Shown here piece by piece: positions 9,727 through 23,809 of a DNA stretch of 26,802 bases. A program made the translations under genes and the position numbers. The notes beneath the pieces are model-generated. The model was not told the origin of the DNA, searched no databases, and was given only the letters and a program-made list of their open reading frames with translations. Positions within the stretch are counted from its first letter, which is position 1. Every line of letters begins with the position of its first letter. Source of the DNA: a virus; the IMG/VR virus record IMGVR_UViG_3300020442_002574, positions 1-26,802 of that record. One strand, given 5' to 3'.

Positions 9727-9763
9727 GAATACAAGTTTAGATTATCCTTGAGCCTTAGTCAAG
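9727..9763 (-). promoter_or_regulatory. Promoter/operator E before the Rad52-like gene
   Basis: Read on the minus strand: CTTGA-CTAAGGC-TCAAG (9747-9763), a perfect 5-bp inverted repeat, containing -35 TTGACT. A 17-bp spacer follows, then -10 TAAACT (9734-9739), TG, and the ATG only 7 bp beyond the -10. The preceding GT9 gene ends with TAA at 9755-9757, inside the element. The predicted transcript would start at or next to the ATG. Confidence 0.7.
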
Positions 9764-13396: not shown

Positions 13397-13432
13397 TTTA
13401 TTATCTTACTCCTTTATTGTGTGTTTGTCAAT
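13397..13432 (-). promoter_or_regulatory. Promoter/operator F before the SSB-like gene
   Basis: On the minus strand: -35 TTGACA (13426-13431), 17-bp spacer, -10 TAAGAT (13403-13408), then 6 bp to the ATG. The inverted repeat here is ATTG-N9-CAAT (13416-13432), in place of CTTG-N9-CAAG: both outer positions changed together and symmetry is kept. The TGA stop of the polymerase gene (13428-13430) is part of the -35 box. A purine-rich AAAGGAG sits upstream of the -10 but would not be on a transcript starting at the ATG; it could serve readthrough mRNA from the polymerase gene. Confidence 0.65.
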
Positions 13433-15974
13433 TCTTAAGCTCAGACAGTTTAGTATATACTTTATTGTCTTGAACTCCAATTAAGTTAGCGAATACCGCT
13501 CCGTCTACTGTCGATCCTTTTACAATCACAATTTGACCTTTCTTGGGTAGGCCATTGTTCTGCGATTGGCAGTCGTCCATTCTGTCGTTGAATATCATTA
13601 CCGTGGTTGATGCTGTTTCATCAGACACCTCCATTTTGTAATACTTATTGCCATTTCTAGACTTACCCTTCCAGCAGTCATCTACCTGACCGATGAAAAC
13701 TACCTTGCTTCGCTCTGCGAGCCCATTTACCGAACGAACCGAGATAAGACCTGATCTCTTGCTTGAGAATATGTCTTTAAGTGTTTTGTTGTAAGTGTAT
13801 CCCAATAGCATTTTTTCGTAATACCAATTAGCAAATGACTCGGATTTACTGTTCTTAGTATAAATTTCTAGATAAGGGATATATTTCTTCTTTATTGTCT
13901 CGTACCTAGACTCTGGAATTATGGGTTTTCCTTTTTCGTTCTTGAACGTTCTAAGGTACTTCAAAATCTCAACTAAATCATGGTTGAACCTTTCAGCGAG
14001 CTCGATTGCGTACCTTTTCTCTTTAGCTAGCAAGATGTTCCAGAGTTGAGCCTCCAATACAACCTTGCTCCTAGACTGCTTGAAACCCTCCAAAGCCCCA
14101 GCTTGAATCAAGGCAGAGAGAACACCAACGTTGAGTTTCGATTCTTTAGCGGCACAAAACACATCAAATTTAGATGAGTATTCGCTTTTAAAGTCGTTAA
14201 TTTTTTCTACTGCTTTGTCTGAGATTCCTTTGATCGAAAGCAGTCCAAAGCGTATGTCTCCACCCTCAATTGAGAAGTCCATGTTCGACTTGGTTAAATG
14301 CGGCGGCAAAAGCTTAATATCGAACAAGTCCATCTCTTTGTGGATTTTTGAGATTTCACTAATCGGGTCAGGCTCATGCCTGCTCATTTTCAGCAAGCTC
14401 AAGAAAAACTCCTGTGGGTACTTAAACTTCAGGTAGACAGTAGAAGCCGCAAGCGCTGCGTAGCTCACGCTGTGGCTTTTATTGAATGAGTAATTAGCGG
14501 AGTCTTCAAGAATCTGCCAAAGGATATTACCAATTTCTTCGTCTAGGTTATTTTCTTTGATTTTGTCTTTGATTTTTTTCTTCCACTTTACAACCTCTGA
14601 CCGCTTTTTCTTGCCAACGATACGCCTCAAGATTTCCGCTTCATCAAGCGTAAAGCCAATCTTGTGAGCCATTTTCATTAGCTGCTCTTGATATAGAGCT
14701 ACTCCGCCTGTTTCTTTGAGAATGTCATCAAAGAAGGGATGTATGGGCTCGTATACGTCATTATTTGTATAGTTAGCGTACTGGTCGGTAAAGTTCATAG
14801 CGCCTGGTCGGGCCAAAGCCAATACAGCGCTTAGTTCCTCTAGGTTCTTGGGCTTCACTTTTTGACACACTTTGAAGTTGGTGTCCGCTTCAATCTGAAA
14901 AGCCCCGTGTGGCGAACGCAAATCTTGTAATTGCTGATAAATCAAGGGCTCATTTAAATCAATATCAGTAACTTTAATACCTACTTGCTTGCATACGTCA
15001 TCAACAACGGAAACACTTCTGAGACCCAAAAGGTCAAGCTTCACATTGAAGATTGAAATCCAATTCATATCATATGACGTAACACCAGCGTCTTTGGCTG
15101 AAGTAAGCTCGGCTGGGCAAGTATCCTCCATAGCGTCATAAGAAAGCGATATAGCAGAGGCGTGGACGCCCTTGTTTTTTATCAGCCCTCTAAGCTTTAA
15201 GGCTACATTGTAAGCTTCTTTATTGTCGTCGCACCAAGCTTTGAACTTATCCTCTTCTTCGTAAGCTTGTTCTATGTCCATTACCTGACCGAATGTCTTG
15301 GGAATAAGCCCAGACACCTCATTCATCTCAGTCTCGTTCTTCTCGGTGACAATTTTACCGCACTCTTTTATTAGCAGTTTACCGCTTAAAGTGTTGAGCG
15401 TGAGAATCTTTGAGGTTTTACCAACGAACTTTTCGTCAAGGTATTTGATAACCTCTTGGCGACGGTAGTAGCAAATGTCTAAATCAACGTCACACATCAA
15501 TGAGCCGTCAAGGTAGGTAATCCCATCAACCTCTTTTTTCTTAGCGCGAATTTTTGAAATAAACCTCTCAAAATATAGATCGTGCTCAATTGGGTCTATA
15601 CCAGTCACACCAATAAGATATAAAACGATACTTCCAGCGGCAGAGCCACGGCCAAGACCAACTGGTATGTCATTCTCTTTGCAGAAGTTAATTACGTCCC
15701 AGACAAGGAGAACGTAATCAATGAACCCCAAATCTCTAAGGGTTTCAAGCTCATACTTAATTCTGTCTACATACTTATCGTAAGCCTTTGTCCCTTTCCT
15801 CACTGGCAACTCAGAAAACCCATTGAGGCAGAGTTTTCTTAGGAAATCATAGTTATTGCAGTCTTCAGTGACATGAGCTCTGTGCTTGTATTCATTGCTT
15901 ATCTCAAACTGAGGCAATCTAACCCCGTGAATTTCTAGGTTATAATCGTCAAAAGATGTAGTAAAGTTTTCCAT
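13428..15974 (-). CDS. dnaE: DNA polymerase III alpha subunit, catalytic core without PHP domain
   Basis: The protein has 848 residues; bacterial DnaE has about 1,160. It is a C-family replicative polymerase. Visible: GLGRGSAAGS (106-115) of the palm; CDVDLDI with the metal-binding aspartates D164 and D166; KLDLLGLR with the third catalytic aspartate D314; fingers motifs (YQEQLMKMAHKIGF, RRIVGKKKR); NKSHSVSYA; a helix-hairpin-helix region (FGLLSIKGISDKAVEKI); and a C-terminal OB-fold (VVFIGQVDDC). The family's N-terminal PHP domain is missing. The protein begins exactly at the linker after it (YNLEIHGVRLPQFE). The PHP part is a separate gene at 17918-18670. It starts 1 bp after the DEDDh exonuclease, the likely proofreading partner. 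No intein motifs are seen at either break. All key polymerase residues are present, so activity is expected. Confidence 0.95.
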   Translation of the reverse strand: MENFTTSFDDYNLEIHGVRLPQFEISNEYKHRAHVTEDCNNYDFLRKLCLNGFSELPVRKGTKAYDKYVDRIKYELETLRDLGFIDYVLLVWDVINFCKENDIPVGLGRGSAAGSIVLYLIGVTGIDPIEHDLYFERFISKIRAKKKEVDGITYLDGSLMCDVDLDICYYRRQEVIKYLDEKFVGKTSKILTLNTLSGKLLIKECGKIVTEKNETEMNEVSGLIPKTFGQVMDIEQAYEEEDKFKAWCDDNKEAYNVALKLRGLIKNKGVHASAISLSYDAMEDTCPAELTSAKDAGVTSYDMNWISIFNVKLDLLGLRSVSVVDDVCKQVGIKVTDIDLNEPLIYQQLQDLRSPHGAFQIEADTNFKVCQKVKPKNLEELSAVLALARPGAMNFTDQYANYTNNDVYEPIHPFFDDILKETGGVALYQEQLMKMAHKIGFTLDEAEILRRIVGKKKRSEVVKWKKKIKDKIKENNLDEEIGNILWQILEDSANYSFNKSHSVSYAALAASTVYLKFKYPQEFFLSLLKMSRHEPDPISEISKIHKEMDLFDIKLLPPHLTKSNMDFSIEGGDIRFGLLSIKGISDKAVEKINDFKSEYSSKFDVFCAAKESKLNVGVLSALIQAGALEGFKQSRSKVVLEAQLWNILLAKEKRYAIELAERFNHDLVEILKYLRTFKNEKGKPIIPESRYETIKKKYIPYLEIYTKNSKSESFANWYYEKMLLGYTYNKTLKDIFSSKRSGLISVRSVNGLAERSKVVFIGQVDDCWKGKSRNGNKYYKMEVSDETASTTVMIFNDRMDDCQSQNNGLPKKGQIVIVKGSTVDGAVFANLIGVQDNKVYTKLSELKN

Positions 15975-15975
15975 A

Positions 15976-16614
15976 TTAAATTTCTATTTGCCATTTAAGC
16001 TTGTTCCATACCTCAATGTTCAATATTAAATCATTAACTGCGTCATGTAAGTTATTGTAGTCAACGTCTATATCGAACTCTTTGCCTAAAGCGGTCAGGT
16101 TCGTTTTGACGCCTTTCTGGAAGGTGTTTAAAGCTTTGTACTGGTATTCCATAAGGTCGTCGCCAGACTTATAAGGAACACCCATCTTAACCCCTTTTGC
16201 AATGCAATGAGTATCTATAAATTTAGGGTAGAGATGGTTACAAGACTTGCCCATGAATTTATAATAATCTTTAATTAAATAAACATCGAAGCCCAGCGTG
16301 TTGTGGCCAACTATGTAATCGCAAGAATCTAGCCAGTCTTCAACAGTAGCGAAAATCTCTTCAGGTTTTACTCCAAGACGATCAACTTTCTTTTGGTCAT
16401 ACCTAGTTATTTTAGCGGCATCCTCACTAATCTTTAGATCGGTATCCCATTTTATATAAATATCTTTTTGGTCTACCACTTTTTCGCCAACCACTTTAAT
16501 CATTCCTATTTGCCAAGGCAGGTTGTGGCAGCTATTCAAGCATAAGTTTAAAGTCTCACAGTCAATAAAGACGTAAGTCTTTTCTTTATCGTATCTAAGT
16601 AAATGTTCGTCCAT
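15976..16614 (-). CDS. DEDDh 3'-5' exonuclease, DnaQ/epsilon-like
   Basis: The protein has 212 residues and all DEDDh catalytic positions: D18 and E20 in VFIDCETLNL (Exo I), D110 in VGHNTLGFDVYL (Exo II), and H190 with D195 in LHDAVNDLILN (Exo III). Members such as the epsilon subunit proofread for DNA polymerase III alpha. Placement 1 bp before the polymerase gene supports that partnership, and it would supply proofreading to a polymerase that has lost its PHP domain from the same chain. Its ATG overlaps the cupin stop (TAATG). RNase T or other DnaQ-fold roles are possible but less likely given the neighbour. Confidence 0.9.
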   Translation of the reverse strand: MDEHLLRYDKEKTYVFIDCETLNLCLNSCHNLPWQIGMIKVVGEKVVDQKDIYIKWDTDLKISEDAAKITRYDQKKVDRLGVKPEEIFATVEDWLDSCDYIVGHNTLGFDVYLIKDYYKFMGKSCNHLYPKFIDTHCIAKGVKMGVPYKSGDDLMEYQYKALNTFQKGVKTNLTALGKEFDIDVDYNNLHDAVNDLILNIEVWNKLKWQIEI

Positions 16615-16979
16615 TATCTGTATACCCTAAAGCTGTCTTCGTCACGGTGAAAAGTGCTGGCTTCAATTAATTTAACATTACCACCCTTACCAATCAACTT
16701 GTGTGGCCTGTTTCTCGGCATTTCCATAGCGTTGCCAGAGGCAATTATAGTTGTGTTTACAATTCCCTCTTTAGTGTCAATCCAGTCAACCTGAAGCGTT
16801 CCCTCTAAAACATAGAATGTCTCATGCTTATCTGCGTGATAATGCATGGAGGTACTTTGATCTTTTAAAATCGTAAGAACTTTTCCGCAGTAATCTTCGG
16901 CCTCATTATTGGCAAACCACTCTTCCTTGCCCCAGCTTTTGCCTACGATTTTAACTTTCTGAATCATCCCAGATTTCAT
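16614..16979 (-). CDS. Cupin protein, mannose-6-phosphate isomerase-like
   Basis: The protein has 121 residues and forms a single cupin barrel. Metal ligands are visible: H46 and H48 in MHYHADKHETFYVLEG with E53, then H93 in MPRNRPHKLIG. The opening (VKIVGKSWGKEEWF) and the order of strands resemble the short type II phosphomannose isomerase or sugar-nucleotide cupins. An isomerase step feeding GDP-mannose would fit Gmd and the glycosyltransferases in this window, but single-domain cupins have many roles, so the substrate is open. It is the first gene of the promoter C transcript and is followed, oddly, by the exonuclease and polymerase. Confidence 0.75.
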   Translation of the reverse strand: MKSGMIQKVKIVGKSWGKEEWFANNEAEDYCGKVLTILKDQSTSMHYHADKHETFYVLEGTLQVDWIDTKEGIVNTTIIASGNAMEMPRNRPHKLIGKGGNVKLIEASTFHRDEDSFRVYR

Positions 16980-17015
16980 AACCCAAGACTATATGAAACT
17001 TGCACCCAAGTCAAG
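16980..17015 (-). promoter_or_regulatory. Promoter/operator C before the cupin-exonuclease-polymerase operon
   Basis: On the minus strand: CTTGA-CTTGGGT-GCAAG (16999-17015), a 4-of-5 inverted repeat, containing -35 TTGACT. A -10 TAGTCT lies at 17-bp spacing (16986-16991); a better-looking TATAGT overlaps it at 15-bp spacing. The ATG is 6 bp after TAGTCT. The GT17 stop TGA (17011-17013) is part of the -35 box. Confidence 0.7.
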
Positions 17016-17925
17016 CTATAAGGTGTTTGAATTTTTCTTGATTATCGACCAAATAAGCAGGGTGATTTTCGTAATTAATTTCCACCTTTTGCGTTAAATG
17101 ATCAAAATCGCTTTTAACCCTAGCTAAAGCCTTTTCTGGCGTATTCATGTCATAATAACTGTTGCCTTCGCCGTGCCCTGCGTCTTTCGAGTGCGCCCAA
17201 CTACTGTACTTTTGAAAAATGACTTCTCCAGTTCCGTCATCCATGCAGGAAAAATGCCAGCCCATGTCTGGCCCCAAGCAGGGATGAGTTGACGCGCTCA
17301 AACTTCTAGCTACTGTCGGACAAGCTTCTAAAAGCGTGCTGTATTCAGCCACTTGACCGCAGCATTGTATATTTCTGTATAGGTTTAGCTTGTGAAAGTG
17401 AAACCTCATGTTAAACCCAAACATTGGTCTAACTGGGCCTTTGTTCCTTGTAACATAATTATTTAGGGTGAACAGTGGCTTTTTATCCTCAAAGATTTGA
17501 TTCATTAAGAAAAACGCCTGATTGGAGATTATTTCATCCACAGGCGTAATTAGAACTACATCCTCTAAATCTGCTCCGTGTTTTTTGAGTAAGTTTACAT
17601 GGTGATTTCCCTGTAGGTGGTCTCTTACCCAGTCGGGGCTATTTTGATTGAAGCGATTCATCCCCAAATAACTTTGGGCCTGAGAATCTAAATTAGGCAA
17701 GTCATCAAGAAGCTCATCAACAGTGTCTATCGTCTCGTAAATTATTTTTGAGGAATACTTTTCAAATCTTTGCTTATCAAACAAAAACGGCTTGGGCATT
17801 CCCGTATGAGTTTGCCCAGCTTCTAGTATGATAAAGTGGTCAACGTGATCCCAATGTTGATTTACTCGAATTTCAAGCAAATCATTTTCATTTAAAAAAT
17901 TACAACAATCCCAAGTTTTAGGCAT
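17011..17925 (-). CDS. Family 17 (GT17) glycosyltransferase
   Basis: The protein has 304 residues and matches the GT17 pattern, the family of eukaryotic beta-1,4-mannosyl-glycoprotein N-acetylglucosaminyltransferase that also occurs in bacteria and viruses. Visible: the opening TWDCCNFLNENDLLEIRVNQ, VDHFIILEAGQTHTGMPKP (about 28-46), a nucleotide-sugar site DVVLITPVDEIIS (about 122-134), and a C-terminal GWHFSCMDDG segment (about 222-231). The ATG lies in the last 8 bp of the PHP gene. It interrupts the distance between the PHP and polymerase halves. The sugar and acceptor are unknown. Together with Gmd, GT4 and GT9 it suggests a phage-made glycan, either on the virion or on the host surface. 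Confidence 0.85.
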   Translation of the reverse strand: MPKTWDCCNFLNENDLLEIRVNQHWDHVDHFIILEAGQTHTGMPKPFLFDKQRFEKYSSKIIYETIDTVDELLDDLPNLDSQAQSYLGMNRFNQNSPDWVRDHLQGNHHVNLLKKHGADLEDVVLITPVDEIISNQAFFLMNQIFEDKKPLFTLNNYVTRNKGPVRPMFGFNMRFHFHKLNLYRNIQCCGQVAEYSTLLEACPTVARSLSASTHPCLGPDMGWHFSCMDDGTGEVIFQKYSSWAHSKDAGHGEGNSYYDMNTPEKALARVKSDFDHLTQKVEINYENHPAYLVDNQEKFKHLIA

Positions 17926-18670
17926 TTATTTCTTTCCAGTTTTCGAGGCAAAATTCATTGCTAGTCATGTGGTCTAAATTAGGCTTGTCTAAAGTTGACC
18001 TGTTGTTGATGCACCTAAAGGTCAAAAACGCTTTGAAGTCTTCTTTCTTATTGTAAAAAACACTTTTGACATTTAAGCACTTATCGTCTTTGCAATACTC
18101 TTCTACTCTCTTTTCTATTAGATAATTAAAAGGTATGTCGTTTTGCTCAACAGCGTAAACAGGCTTACAAAAACTAAAGTCAGGCATACACATGTAGCCG
18201 TGAAGAGTATTTAGATGCAAGAACGAGTCATAAAATGGAACAACCATGTTAAGGTCTTTATCGCTCCAGTGCTTCTTCAGTGATTTGTAGTCTGTTCTAG
18301 GGACATAGTAAAACCCTTTCTGCGCGGCTTCAGTATATATTTTGATTAACTTTTTATAGCCCTCTTTGTTCTTTGCGAAAACGATGATCTTTGAGGTTTT
18401 CTTTCTTTGCTCTTCGTTCTTTTCATCTAAATCTTCACACACGCTAATTCTTAGCCCAAATCTAAAGTTGATGCCTGCTTTCTCGCAATTTAAGTAGCCC
18501 TGCAAGAATCCACTCATAGAGTCGTCCACTAAAAACAAATCCTCTAGCTTATTTTCTTTGCAAAGGTCTATAATTGATTGAGGGCCACCTTTAATAGAAG
18601 AACCTTCCTCTTCCAGTGTTAAGATAGATTTGCCTATCGAATAGTGTGATTTAAAAAATGGTACTGTCAT
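17918..18670 (-). CDS. Stand-alone PHP domain of DNA polymerase III alpha
   Basis: The protein has 250 residues and corresponds to the N-terminal PHP domain of DnaE. Aligning segments are FFKSHYSIGKS (5-15), LEDLFLVDDSMSGFLQGYL and AGINFRFGLRISV, then IIVFAKNKEGYKKLIKIY and AAQKGFYYVPRTDYKSLKKH. Near the end, RSTLDKPNLDHMTSNEFCL is the usual PHP exit, and it stops where the polymerase core gene begins in homology terms. Several metal ligands are replaced: the canonical HxHSxYS start reads FKSHYS, TDH reads VDD, and the later DVHY reads KSVFY. So PHP phosphoesterase or proofreading activity is probably lost and a structural role is likely. Its ATG overlaps the upstream stop (TGATG). The two halves together are about the length of a normal DnaE. 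Confidence 0.9.
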   Translation of the reverse strand: MTVPFFKSHYSIGKSILTLEEEGSSIKGGPQSIIDLCKENKLEDLFLVDDSMSGFLQGYLNCEKAGINFRFGLRISVCEDLDEKNEEQRKKTSKIIVFAKNKEGYKKLIKIYTEAAQKGFYYVPRTDYKSLKKHWSDKDLNMVVPFYDSFLHLNTLHGYMCMPDFSFCKPVYAVEQNDIPFNYLIEKRVEEYCKDDKCLNVKSVFYNKKEDFKAFLTFRCINNRSTLDKPNLDHMTSNEFCLENWKEINA

Positions 18671-19659
18671 CAGAAATTAAATGGATCATTGCTGTTTGCT
18701 TCACTTTGTGCGAACTCTCCATGCCATCTGGGGCAACCTTCGTACTCTCTTTTTTCTATCTTTTGCCCTTTCTCGGCTTTTAGTTCGCTCTTCTTCATAC
18801 TAGAATCCAATATTCTTGATTCATTGTCAAGCAGAACATAATAGCTGTAAGGGTCTCTCTGTGGGCAAACCCAAGTTTTACCAGCAGCACAGAGCCAAGA
18901 GTTTTTCTTGCTATCAGCCGCAAAATTAGCCACAGCGTGCTCATCTTTGGTGAAGTTATTTACGATATGGAACACACGAGAGATGTAATACTCAAACCCT
19001 TTTATGGCTTCGTCTGAGAACTCAAGCTCTTGTATGGGTTGTTTCGGAAATTTAAGGAATAGGAAGTTAAAAATTATTCGTTTTACTTTCGGCCAAAGGG
19101 TTTTTGATGCTAGCACATACATCATAGCCTGCCTTTCCCCGTCCAAATCTTCTTTGCTGAATTTCTTTTTGCTACTTTTGTAATCTATAATTTTAAGAGT
19201 CTTGCCTTTATCATACAAAGCGTGCTTGTCGATATATCCTTTAATTATGTATTCTGGGTCTTTACTTTCTAGTAAGAAATCTGTTTCTGCTTTACCTAAT
19301 TTACCGCCATCTTCAGTACAGAAAAAATCATGCTTTAAGCCAACCATTATCATTTTCTTAACCAAGTCAAAATTGTCTTCTGACTTGTCATCCATATCGG
19401 CCACTTCAAAATGCCTTCTGGTTAGCCTTAGACAAGCGGCATCTCCACTTATGTCGTTAGCCTTAATTATGCGGTCATAGTTGGCCTTATGTTTTTCGTT
19501 TTGCAGGTACTCAAGTAAAGCGTGGCAAATAGTACCACGTCTTGCGCCGTCATTGTTCTTTTCGGGTACTTTTAAATGCTTGGCAGTATAGTATTTCCAA
19601 CTACATTGCTCTAACGATTTCATCGTTGATGCAGAGACGTATTTTTTTTGTTCAGCCAT
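18670..19659 (-). CDS. PD-(D/E)XK nuclease, RecB/Cas4-like, with possible iron-sulfur cysteines
   Basis: The protein has 329 residues. RecB-type nuclease motifs appear in order: H46 in GTICHALLEYL, E125 in KAETDFLL, D144 in IKGYIDKH, D159-Y-K161 in KIIDYKSS, and Q177...Y181 in GERQAMMYVL. This is the layout of AddB/Cas4-like exonucleases that resect DNA ends. One cysteine lies near the N-terminus (C19, SLEQCSW) and three near the C-terminus (C257, C265, C309), the arrangement that holds a 4Fe-4S cluster in Cas4 and AddB. It lies between primase (8-bp overlap) and the PHP gene (1-bp overlap). A role in replication-linked recombination or DNA-end processing is inferred; no CRISPR genes are present. 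Confidence 0.85.
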   Translation of the reverse strand: MAEQKKYVSASTMKSLEQCSWKYYTAKHLKVPEKNNDGARRGTICHALLEYLQNEKHKANYDRIIKANDISGDAACLRLTRRHFEVADMDDKSEDNFDLVKKMIMVGLKHDFFCTEDGGKLGKAETDFLLESKDPEYIIKGYIDKHALYDKGKTLKIIDYKSSKKKFSKEDLDGERQAMMYVLASKTLWPKVKRIIFNFLFLKFPKQPIQELEFSDEAIKGFEYYISRVFHIVNNFTKDEHAVANFAADSKKNSWLCAAGKTWVCPQRDPYSYYVLLDNESRILDSSMKKSELKAEKGQKIEKREYEGCPRWHGEFAQSEANSNDPFNF

Positions 19660-20572
19660 TAGTTTTTCCCATCCAGTCTGTTATTTGCTCTTTAGACATC
19701 TCCCCAAAATCTCCGCCTGTTGGTAACGAAACACTGATTTGGTGTGGGTCGAAGTAATTCAAAAGCTTTGCTTGCGCTTTCTTAGCGGCTTTGTTTCCTG
19801 CGCCACTGTTTTTACTATCGTCGTTAAAAGCTACGACTATGTTTGTTAGATCAAACCTAATAAACGAGCTAATCAAGGCGGAGCTTAAATCTAGACCAAA
19901 AGACACAACTACATTTTTAAACCCACAATCCCATAGAGCAAGCATATCACCTATGCTCTCTACTATTATAACACTTTTCTGCTCTTTTATTAATTTATAA
20001 TTAAGAAAAAATGGGTATTTCCACTTTGACTTGTCGCCTATAAGCTTCCATTTCGGGCGCATACTGCTTGAGTTTGTGAGCAAATCTCTACCAGCAAACC
20101 CAACAATTTCATCTGAGGCGTTAAATATTGGGAACACATATCTGTCTTGCATTTTACCTGCTTTACTAACGCCGCCTTTAAACTCAGATACAGAATAGGT
20201 TGAAACACCTCTGCCCTCCCAGTAGGAGTGATCTGGTCTAAGTTTATTTAGTAATTCTTTTTTGTAAGTCTTTCCCATGCGAATTTCAGGCTTTTCAACT
20301 CTTTCTATCGAAACAGCAACAGAGTTTTTCGAAAGCCAAGTTCTAGCCTCGTCTATCGTTTTTAAATTTAGAGACAGCTTAACTAAGTCGTCGAAACTGC
20401 CGCTAATGTTTCTGGCAAAATCTACAAACCTTCCATTGCTTTTATTTATGCACAGCGACGTGTTATTGTCAGAGTCTCTGTATATCGGGCGAGTTCTAAA
20501 TTCTTTATGATTCTCAGTTATATTAGTATAACCCAGTTCCAGTAGAACTTCTTTGATATTTTCCACTCTCAT
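19652..20572 (-). CDS. DnaG-type primase, short form
   Basis: The protein has 306 residues, about half a bacterial DnaG. The N-terminal part (about 1-70) looks like the primase zinc-binding module, but the usual Cys/His ligands are missing: the expected CPFH-type motif reads RPIYRDSDNNTSL. The middle has YWEGRGVS and the RYVFPIFNASDEIVGFAGR core (about 144-162). The TOPRIM parts follow: VIIVESIGDMLAL with E205, and VVAFNDDS with D251 and D252, then GAGNKAAKKA. The helicase-binding C-terminal domain of DnaG is absent. It is joined to the DnaB-like gene by a TAATG overlap, so the two likely work together at the fork. Confidence 0.87.
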   Translation of the reverse strand: MRVENIKEVLLELGYTNITENHKEFRTRPIYRDSDNNTSLCINKSNGRFVDFARNISGSFDDLVKLSLNLKTIDEARTWLSKNSVAVSIERVEKPEIRMGKTYKKELLNKLRPDHSYWEGRGVSTYSVSEFKGGVSKAGKMQDRYVFPIFNASDEIVGFAGRDLLTNSSSMRPKWKLIGDKSKWKYPFFLNYKLIKEQKSVIIVESIGDMLALWDCGFKNVVVSFGLDLSSALISSFIRFDLTNIVVAFNDDSKNSGAGNKAAKKAQAKLLNYFDPHQISVSLPTGGDFGEMSKEQITDWMGKTNG

Positions 20573-22074
20573 TATAGAACGCCATCACCATCATTGTTTT
20601 GATTGTCTTCTATTAAGTAATTTTCTCTAGCCCTCTCGCAGAGATGCCTCAACGACCCTTCTTCTCTGACGCTGAAGTTTTCTAGCGAGAAGTTGATGTA
20701 GTTGCCAACATATCTTTGAGAGCCGTCAGGAAACACCCTGCGTAAATAGTCAGCATGACCCATCGCATCTTTCCCTTGAAATCTGCTTTTTACAGGTATC
20801 AATTTATGAGTACCAGCATTGTAAGTCATGTTTCCATTTTCGTCATACTCGTTGTCGAGCATCAACTCTTCCTCGTCTTTTTGTCTAAAGATACCTACAA
20901 ACGCAGCAAACCACTGCAATCTGTCTGACAAAGAAATCGCAGAGCTATCGTCAACACGGTTCCTGCCTTCGGCTGACCTGTTTAACTGCATCGCTGTCAG
21001 CATAGGAGCGTTAACTTCCACTGCAATCTCTTTGAGTCTATTGATTTTCTCACCAATAGCTTGATACTCAGCCCAGTTTTGACCTACCTTCTCGCCAGTA
21101 AGCTTTACATAGTCGTAAACAATCAAGCACTGATTGCCCCTGCCTACCTCATTGTAGTACCACCGTTTAATTAAGCTGCATATTTGATCGATGCTTTTGT
21201 TGGCGACATGCATGTGGTAGAACTCATTGCTTTCACTCAGAGTTTTTTGGGCTCTACGAATTTTCTCAAAATACTCTGGGTTCTTGCGCCACTGACCTGT
21301 TTCTAGATACCAAGTAGGCACATCAGTCATGGCTCCAGCCATTCTAAATCTGATTTCATTAGTGGTCATCTCTGTGTCTAGATACAGAGCTTTTACTTTG
21401 TTGTGCTTGGCGGTCTTGAAGCAAACGTCACTAAGCCATGTAGTTTTACCTTCACCTGGTCTTGAGGCTATAGCATATATGTGGCCGCATTTAAACCCGC
21501 CATAAAGCCTGTTGAACTCTTCGTAAGGAGATTGCAGGCCGTTTTCGTCTTCTGGGTTATTGCCAGCCTCCTCAATCAAATCTAACAACCCATCGGTAAT
21601 TTTTTCTGGCTGATCTGTATCGGCGTACCCTGAAATCTTATCGTTGTAAATTGAATCACAATCTGCGATTATCTCGTCAACTTCTTTACTGCCATTGGTT
21701 TCCGCCTCTTGCCTCAGTTTTTTGGCTGTGGCTTCTATTTCTCTGCGAATCCTGTACTTTACAAGCTCTTTGCTGGCTTCAACCGCTGCGTGCCTGTTTA
21801 TCTGCGTGAAAGCAATGCTTTCTATGTAGTCGTATATATTTACATCGTCTTTAAAGGATACTCCAAGCTCCTTGATTTTGGTGGCTAGTATTACTTTGTC
21901 TATGGATTGATTTTGATAAGCACAGCTTTTAATTACATTGAAAATAGTATAGTGAACGTCATTAAAAAAGTCTTTTTCTGTTATAAAACCGTCAATTTCA
22001 GGAAAAATATCAGGATATTTAATCAATCCCCCGAGTACATGCCTTTCGATTTGTAGGGAATAGATTTTACTCAT
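20572..22074 (-). CDS. dnaB: DnaB-like replicative helicase
   Basis: The protein has 500 residues, similar in length to bacterial DnaB. The N-terminal helical domain starts with IERHVLGGLIKYPDIF and is followed by a linker helix. The RecA-like motor has GGFKCGHIYAIASRPGEGKTT with a Walker A (about 203-212), ALYLDTEM (about 229-236), and CLIVYDYVKL as Walker B. A further downstream motif region (AMQLNRSAEGRNRVDD, SDRLQWFA) is typical of DnaB DNA loops. It is the first gene of the promoter B transcript and is followed directly by primase. The ATG lies 6 bp from the predicted -10, so its mRNA may be leaderless. Confidence 0.93.
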   Translation of the reverse strand: MSKIYSLQIERHVLGGLIKYPDIFPEIDGFITEKDFFNDVHYTIFNVIKSCAYQNQSIDKVILATKIKELGVSFKDDVNIYDYIESIAFTQINRHAAVEASKELVKYRIRREIEATAKKLRQEAETNGSKEVDEIIADCDSIYNDKISGYADTDQPEKITDGLLDLIEEAGNNPEDENGLQSPYEEFNRLYGGFKCGHIYAIASRPGEGKTTWLSDVCFKTAKHNKVKALYLDTEMTTNEIRFRMAGAMTDVPTWYLETGQWRKNPEYFEKIRRAQKTLSESNEFYHMHVANKSIDQICSLIKRWYYNEVGRGNQCLIVYDYVKLTGEKVGQNWAEYQAIGEKINRLKEIAVEVNAPMLTAMQLNRSAEGRNRVDDSSAISLSDRLQWFAAFVGIFRQKDEEELMLDNEYDENGNMTYNAGTHKLIPVKSRFQGKDAMGHADYLRRVFPDGSQRYVGNYINFSLENFSVREEGSLRHLCERARENYLIEDNQNNDGDGVL

Positions 22075-22110
22075 AACGCAAGCTTAACACGCACTTGGGG
22101 GCGAGTCAAG
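22075..22110 (-). promoter_or_regulatory. Promoter/operator B before the helicase operon
   Basis: On the minus strand: CTTGA-CTCGCCC-CCAAG (22094-22110), a 4-of-5 inverted repeat, containing -35 TTGACT. A 17-bp spacer leads to -10 TAAGCT (22081-22086), followed by TG and the helicase ATG 6 bp after the -10. The upstream gene stops 3 bp before the repeat. The first 16 bp closely match promoter A (TTGACYCGCCCYCAAG). Confidence 0.75.
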
Positions 22111-22846: not shown

Positions 22847-23248
22847 TGGTGGACGCGAGGGGAGTCGAACCCCTGTCTTTAAAACCATCTACTCAAACAT
22901 GCTACAAGCTTAGTCAGCGTTAATGACTCGCGCTTCATCACTGACACCTACACGCGAGGTTGGAGACTCTTTATTTAGACTAGACCGACTCCTATCCTAG
23001 CTTTTTTTGCTCGCTATCGACGCCCTAGCTCCTTAACGAGCATCCAGAGTAGGACGGGTAGCTTACGCAGCTACAGCAGCCTCTTCAGCCCAACCAAACT
23101 TAGCGAGAATCGCGTCAGCTTCGTCAAGCGAAGGAGCCATATCAACATTATTGGCAGTTGAATACCTAGACAGATGATTTAAGAGGCCCACTGTCATCCT
23201 CTGCTTGCAGTCTGGTATAAGACTCTAAATCGAAACCAGTACGCGCCC
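22847..23248 (-). ncRNA. ssrA: tmRNA (one-piece), phage-encoded
   Basis: The 402-nt RNA has every diagnostic part. The 5' end GGGCGCG pairs fully with 3' CGCGTCC, including a G-U pair at position 3, the alanine identity signal. CCA is encoded at the 3' end. The 5' TGGTTTCGAT block and a T arm (AGGGG, TTCGACT, CCCCT) are clear. The 3' segment GCTGACTAAGCTTGTAG is nearly identical to the conserved tmRNA stretch. Downstream of the 5' domain, AGAGG pairs with CCTCT and GATGA with TCATC, forming pseudoknot PK1. tmRNA with SmpB rescues stalled ribosomes and tags the unfinished peptide. No SmpB gene is in the window, so the host's is presumably used. The nuclease stop is 4 bp upstream, so the RNA is probably processed from an operon transcript. 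Confidence 0.95.
23063..23155 (-). other. Predicted tmRNA tag reading frame
   Basis: Just after PK1 the frame GCC AAT AAT GTT GAT ATG opens and runs 30 codons to TAA. The predicted tag starts ANNVDM and ends WAEEAAVAA. The hydrophobic A-V-A-A end is what ClpXP-type proteases recognise. The resume codon is inferred from the alanine and its place after PK1; another codon nearby could be used. About 30 residues is long compared with the 10 of E. coli. Confidence 0.7.
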
Positions 23249-23773: not shown

Positions 23774-23809
23774 TTGCCAAGTTTCGCTTAGTCTTGATTA
23801 AATGTCAAG
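23774..23809 (-). promoter_or_regulatory. Promoter/operator D before the nuclease-tmRNA operon
   Basis: On the minus strand: CTTGA-CATTTAA-TCAAG (23793-23809), a perfect 5-bp inverted repeat, containing -35 TTGACA. A 17-bp spacer leads to a weak -10 GAAACT (23780-23785), then TTGG and the ATG 6 bp after the -10. The RecA stop TGA (23805-23807) is part of the -35 box. This is the nearest candidate promoter for the tmRNA. Confidence 0.68.

Follow-up and report, generated by a model that had tools for sequence, protein, structure and literature searches.

Separate genes for the PHP domain and the catalytic core of a DnaE-type DNA polymerase in uncultured phages

We analysed a 26.8-kb viral contig (IMG/VR record IMGVR_UViG_3300020442_002574, 26,802 nucleotides (nt); hereafter the window), whose replication operon lies on the minus strand and encodes the alpha subunit of DNA polymerase III (Pol III) in two separate genes. 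One of them specifies a free-standing protein equivalent to the N-terminal PHP domain of the subunit (PHP) and the other its catalytic core (CORE), while the gene of a DEDDh 3'-5' exonuclease (EXO) is located between them (Table 1). The window PHP and CORE are two parts of one DnaE-type polymerase. Most probably, the alpha subunit was divided once, long ago and permanently, and the working enzyme would be a three-chain assembly of PHP, EXO and CORE. Both halves had been recognised in an original prediction made from the letters of the window alone, and the coordinates proposed for their open reading frames (ORFs) were confirmed.

Position of the break and its occurrence in related phages

Single-chain structure predictions (AlphaFold2) were compared, by Z score, with structures of the Protein Data Bank (PDB). 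Folded alone, the PHP chain (predicted local distance difference test, pLDDT, 91) superimposed on residues 6-259 of Taq Pol III (Z 23.9) and 5-248 of the E. coli enzyme (Z 23.3), whereas the score against free PHP phosphoesterases was far lower (Z 12.8). The match was contiguous, with no exonuclease inserted, i.e. the arrangement of PolC was not found. The modelling showed the window PHP to be a complete Pol III PHP domain, which is predicted to fold independently. The CORE model (pLDDT 86.7, with low confidence only in approximately the first dozen N-terminal residues) begins at the palm and matched Taq residues 283-1122 (Z 36.8) and the E. coli enzyme from residue 269 (Z 33.9). Its OB fold (residues 742-839) lies C-terminal to the HhH region, which is the DnaE arrangement, and the chain stops about 10 residues past this fold, without the C-terminal tau-binding domain, which is also missing from many DnaE3 proteins (PMC3919608).

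The ends of these structural matches place the break within approximately 20-24 residues of the PHP-palm linker, with nothing sizeable missing, which bears out the original proposal that the subunit is divided at a natural domain linker. The absence of intein motifs, noted at the same time, also holds: no Pfam intein domain was detected in either half, and the fragments end where the domains end, leaving no room for one.

Relatives of CORE (from viral contigs and from bacterial and archaeal genomes and bins) and of PHP were gathered using split-type queries and the best 80 matches per search, so that a rare distant fused member could be missed. In all 172 loci of viral contigs or metagenome-assembled genomes (MAGs) that contain the three parts, PHP, EXO and CORE are separate genes of the same strand, in this order, and in none of them are they fused. 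These loci represent 145 distinct COREs, with identities down to 37%. Thus, the same split, which the original prediction had suggested looking for in other marine phages, was found in a large set of uncultured phages, most of them aquatic. The loci lacking one part were contig ends or a single locus (L065) in which PHP and EXO, at first seemingly missing from the flank, are placed about 10 kb upstream of CORE. The lengths of the COREs were bimodal, with <900 aa in the split family and >1000 aa, including a fused PHP domain, in nearly all others. The distance matrices of PHP and CORE were correlated (0.92; partial correlation of 0.67 after regressing out helicase and primase), and 105 of the 145 loci have an upstream helicase-primase-nuclease set on the same strand.

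In 43 of the 145 loci the three genes follow one another directly (both gaps of ≤60 nt), with no additional gene inserted. A 4-nt overlap between EXO and CORE is present in 42 loci, and overlaps of 1-11 nt between PHP and EXO are found in many. All three relative frames occur at the overlapping junctions, which argues against a fusion product generated by programmed frameshifting.

These data also bear on the view that dnaE was fragmented recently or accidentally by inserted genes, of homing endonuclease type or cargo, and that PHP is a decaying remnant. Fragmented dnaE genes are indeed present in other phages, namely KLEB27-3 (with an HNH gene inside dnaE), phiT1 and KKP_3916 (at least 4 pieces), and cargo genes do occupy the gaps in the split family. 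However, the split is common to the whole clade and falls in a linker rather than in conserved motifs, no gene beyond EXO is inserted in the 43 compact loci, and PHP is under strong purifying selection (see below). For the family as a whole (172 of 172 loci) this view is refuted, and we consider it to have almost no chance of being correct.

In phylogenetic analysis the split COREs formed one side of a branch with 100% support, opposite 29 fused DnaE proteins (22 bacterial and 7 phage). When the tree was rooted with a PolC outgroup, the split clade was placed on the DnaE side, although its exact place within DnaE has weak support and is influenced by long branches. The monophyly of the clade and its long branch would fit the idea that Pol III was originally encoded by separate genes, and that the cellular DnaE and PolC arose later by fusion; a similar argument was made for another phage Pol III by Iyer et al. 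2021 (PMC7824862). The position on the DnaE side speaks against this scenario, even if the place inside DnaE is weak and open to long-branch attraction. Moreover, the PHP domain is fused in DnaE as well as in PolC, so that one ancient fission would be simpler than two fusions, and we therefore regard ancestral separation as highly unlikely.

The original prediction had recognised that a full-length DnaE elsewhere in the genome would make the two fragments unrelated. In 14 contigs of 56-172 kb, whose completeness is not known, each contig gave one PF07733 match and one PF02811 match, in the same two genes, and no second DnaE or PHP was detected. Contigs carrying the trio were also binned to MAGs of Flavobacteriaceae, Flavobacteriales, Saprospiraceae and Bacteriovorax. 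The bins of Flavobacteriaceae, Saprospiraceae and Bacteriovorax contain a longer, host-type DnaE as well, which indicates that the trio contigs are most likely phage contigs in these bins. One Flavobacteriaceae MAG (G023, the source of L190) holds two different split-type COREs (L287 and L289) in addition to a full-length host-type DnaE of 1461 aa, and this most probably reflects the presence of two phages in one bin.

The full-length host DnaE of such MAGs would be in keeping with the fragments being spare or repair polymerase parts in a phage that replicates with the host polymerase or with another polymerase of its own. Against this, the trio belongs to the same operon as the genes of a DnaB-type helicase and a primase, and the contigs contained no further Pol III core (no search was made for other families of phage polymerase). 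We find this explanation highly improbable.

A tblastn search of 50,697 phage records with CORE, PHP and EXO yielded only distant DnaE genes, either fused or cut by endonuclease genes (approximately 24-33% identity for CORE), and no match for EXO. The PHP match in Pectobacterium phage PcaP2EGY was rejected, as it sits in a 3.1-kb gene and therefore looks fused.

Active sites and the proposed three-chain enzyme

The polymerase site of CORE is intact, with the catalytic residues D162, D164 and D314 invariant (alignment A2). The catalytic residues of EXO (D18, E20, D110, H190 and D195) are likewise invariant (alignment A4), and the best PDB sequence match of this protein is the PolC exonuclease (1.1e-9). 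EXO is probably the proofreading subunit.

In contrast, and unnoticed in the original prediction, the metal site of PHP is gone in all 141 sequences, when the columns that hold H, D, E or C in bacterial DnaE are compared. One His is replaced by Lys in 134 of the 141 sequences and another in 140, the Asp by Lys or Arg in 140, and the Glu by Arg in 130 (Lys in 9); all 141 have a gap in the Cys column. In the D-x-H pair, the Asp is Ser or Thr in 141 of 141 and the His is mostly Tyr or Phe. At the first two His columns the alignment, which is loose at the N-terminus, shows gaps. The motif of active metal-dependent PHP exonucleases, given as HHDHEH[C/H]DH in a recent survey of bacterial polymerases (PMC12926913), is thus absent from the split-family PHP. 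At the same time PHP is conserved and under strong purifying selection, with a ratio of nonsynonymous to synonymous substitution rates (dN/dS) of 0.054, the values for CORE and EXO being 0.037.

The former metal site contains a nearly invariant set of basic residues, which in the window are K7, K14 (K or R), R74 and K94. Their conservation suggests that the pocket may have taken on a new role. A more speculative proposal, which we consider rather unlikely, is that PHP is an obligate but exchangeable scaffold whose basic pocket (K7, K/R14, R74, K94) would hold EXO or a frayed primer end, so that the proofreading module could leave and rejoin.

The original prediction had left two options for the halves, i.e. 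that they assemble as separate chains or that they work independently. In the latter case PHP would act alone, e.g. as a phosphoesterase, nuclease or pyrophosphatase, and CORE would polymerise without it. PHP is encoded separately, is predicted to be well folded and may lie as far as about 10 kb from CORE (L065), and one report describes a pyrophosphatase activity of the E. coli PHP domain (PMC4822814). On the other hand, none of the 141 sequences has the canonical set of metal ligands, the fold is closest to the PHP domain of Pol III and not to free PHP enzymes, and PHP always occurs with CORE and EXO, in one order. Independent action therefore seems very unlikely to us, and the assembly of PHP and CORE as separate chains is the option we favour by inference.

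In the proposed scheme, the alpha subunit would have been separated into two subunits, PHP and the catalytic one, between whose genes that of a proofreading exonuclease is located. PHP would (i) bind CORE non-covalently, at the surface that forms the PHP-palm/thumb contact in fused Pol III, (ii) stabilise CORE, as inactive fused PHP domains do, and (iii) offer a docking surface for EXO, as the inactive PHP domain of E. coli does for epsilon. Assembly may be aided by coupled translation of the overlapping genes, and the three-chain core could operate together with the helicase and primase that the phage itself encodes. The PHP domain of E. coli is inactive and melts cooperatively with the polymerase as one folding unit, and the loss of metal ligands goes together with the possession of a separate exonuclease (PMC3666897); PHP also carries the epsilon binding site (PMC3919608).

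Several observations weigh against the three-chain enzyme. The PHP-CORE and PHP-EXO binding is putative, the models being those of single chains, and EXO (212 aa) does not have a C-terminal tail like the PHP-binding one of E. coli epsilon, so that docking would differ in detail. Linkage in one operon would likewise lead to co-inheritance of the genes and to correlated distances. A clamp of the beta type (PF02767) was not detected in nine large contigs (the T4 gp45 clamp model matched none of the control genomes). The holoenzyme therefore need not resemble that of E. coli, and processivity may rely on the clamp of the host or on an unrecognised phage factor. Finally, all trio contigs are metagenomic, and no isolate in the collection of 50,697 phage records carries the system.

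A naturally free PHP protein makes the role of the catalytically dead PHP domain directly testable with respect to stability, polymerisation and proofreading.

Gene content and repeated elements of the operon

The features of the window are listed in Table 1. The CORE ORF gave further Pfam matches to the finger domain (PF17657, 1.6e-32) and HHH_6 (PF14579, 3.8e-18), and a match to the OB fold (1.2e-5) that was under the cut-off.

Table 1. Features of the replication region of the window
Feature	Coordinates	Strand	Evidence
DnaB-type replicative helicase	20572..22074	(-)	DnaB_C 1.4e-24
DnaG-type (Toprim) primase	19652..20572	(-)	Toprim 3.2e-8; phrog_47 5e-24
PD-(D/E)XK exonuclease, encoded upstream of PHP in the operon	18670..19659	(-)	PF12705 2.4e-14
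Free-standing PHP protein, 250 aa (N-terminal PHP domain of Pol III alpha)	17918..18670	(-)	Pfam PHP 5.9e-13
Glycosyltransferase family 17 (GT17)	17011..17925	(-)	PF04724 1.9e-17; start overlaps PHP stop
Cupin	16614..16979	(-)	Cupin_2 1.3e-9
DEDDh 3'-5' exonuclease (EXO), 212 aa	15976..16614	(-)	RNase_T 9.6e-15
Pol III alpha core (CORE), 848 aa: palm, thumb, fingers, HhH region, OB fold	13428..15974	(-)	PF07733 5.2e-58
Element TTGAC(N)CAAG(N)CTTG	9732-9763, 16984-17015, 22079-22110, 23778-23809	(-)	pattern, CTTGA..TCAAG palindrome
One-piece transfer-messenger RNA (tmRNA) gene	22847-23248	(-)	

The three genes reported to lie between the two halves in the window are all present, on the same strand, but they do not constitute a meaningful set. 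EXO is the sole gene that is always found between PHP and CORE (172 of 172 loci), and this constancy, a point missing from the original prediction, suggests a function. In contrast, only 3 distinct loci, that of the window among them, have GT17 between PHP and EXO, and a cupin gene occupies this gap in a minority of loci. Elsewhere the gap contains genes of glycosyltransferases, cupins, IMP dehydrogenase-like, SET-domain and radical SAM proteins, as well as unknown proteins. This varied content indicates that the glycosyltransferase and the cupin of the window are cargo.

Two other proteins recur within the trio. One, of 66-128 aa and of an unknown family, has its gene between EXO and CORE in about 55 distinct loci (76 loci overall, e.g. 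L061:1929-2153) and is placed elsewhere in L012, L014 and L019; it is not encoded in the window. This protein may be a further replisome subunit. The second, a conserved protein of 157-205 aa without a Pfam match, fills the PHP-EXO slot in one subgroup (24 loci; L055:1819-2337).

The halves had also been described as lying under different copies of an operator. The repeated element is real in the window: the second copy listed in Table 1 lies between GT17 and the cupin gene, in the region of the 31-nt gap before the latter, and the third at the head of the operon, immediately before the helicase gene. By eye, it comprises a -35-like TTGACT, a 17-nt spacer and a weak -10, in addition to the CTTGA/TCAAG palindrome, which makes an internal promoter before the cupin gene plausible. 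However, the strict pattern was found in only 4 of the 145 loci (in L002 a copy lies between PHP and EXO). Separate control of the halves is thus not a feature of the family and is not tied to the split.

It is worth adding that the tmRNA gene of the window, with the tag ANNVDMAPSLDEADAILAKFGWAEEAAVAA, lies in a 413-nt gap before the replication operon.

Comparison with known polymerases

The cyanobacterial dnaE gene is divided over two genes and carries a split intein. Unlike this system, neither phage half has an intein domain, and the split family shows that the division of a replicative polymerase at a domain boundary can be maintained through long evolution in the absence of inteins. In the phages KLEB27-3 and KKP_3916 dnaE is also in pieces with genes between them, but the breaks fall inside the palm or fingers and PHP is still fused to the palm. 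The dnaE gene of Alicyclobacillus phage KKP_3916 (L096) is distributed over at least 4 separate ORFs, all of which are annotated as hypothetical proteins.

According to bacterial surveys, the alpha chain always keeps its PHP domain (PMC3666897, PMC3919608), and the available part of the recent survey mentioned above (PMC12926913) does not show a PHP-split form. No description of the PHP/EXO/CORE split was found in the open literature, subscription literature being outside the search.

E. coli-type DnaE with epsilon resembles the phage system in its domains and their order, the inactive PHP, the separate DEDDh exonuclease and the catalytic Asp residues. The differences are that the phage PHP has its own gene, CORE ends after the OB fold, EXO is without an epsilon-type tail, and no beta clamp gene was seen. 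As in the phage trio, PHP, exonuclease and polymerase belong together in PolC, whose exonuclease is the closest PDB relative of EXO. PolC is, however, a single polypeptide in which the exonuclease is embedded within the PHP domain and the OB fold is N-terminal (PMC3919608), whereas the phage EXO is a separate gene product and the phage CORE branches with DnaE.

The nearest published case is that of the Pol III of jumbo-phage group 2.2, in which a phage C-family polymerase is likewise encoded by separate genes. This enzyme is split inside the catalytic module and is minimal, lacking other Pol III domains including PHP, and its genes are distant from each other, beside a family B polymerase (Iyer et al. 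2021, PMC7824862). In the window, by contrast, CORE is unbroken in one ORF and PHP is present.

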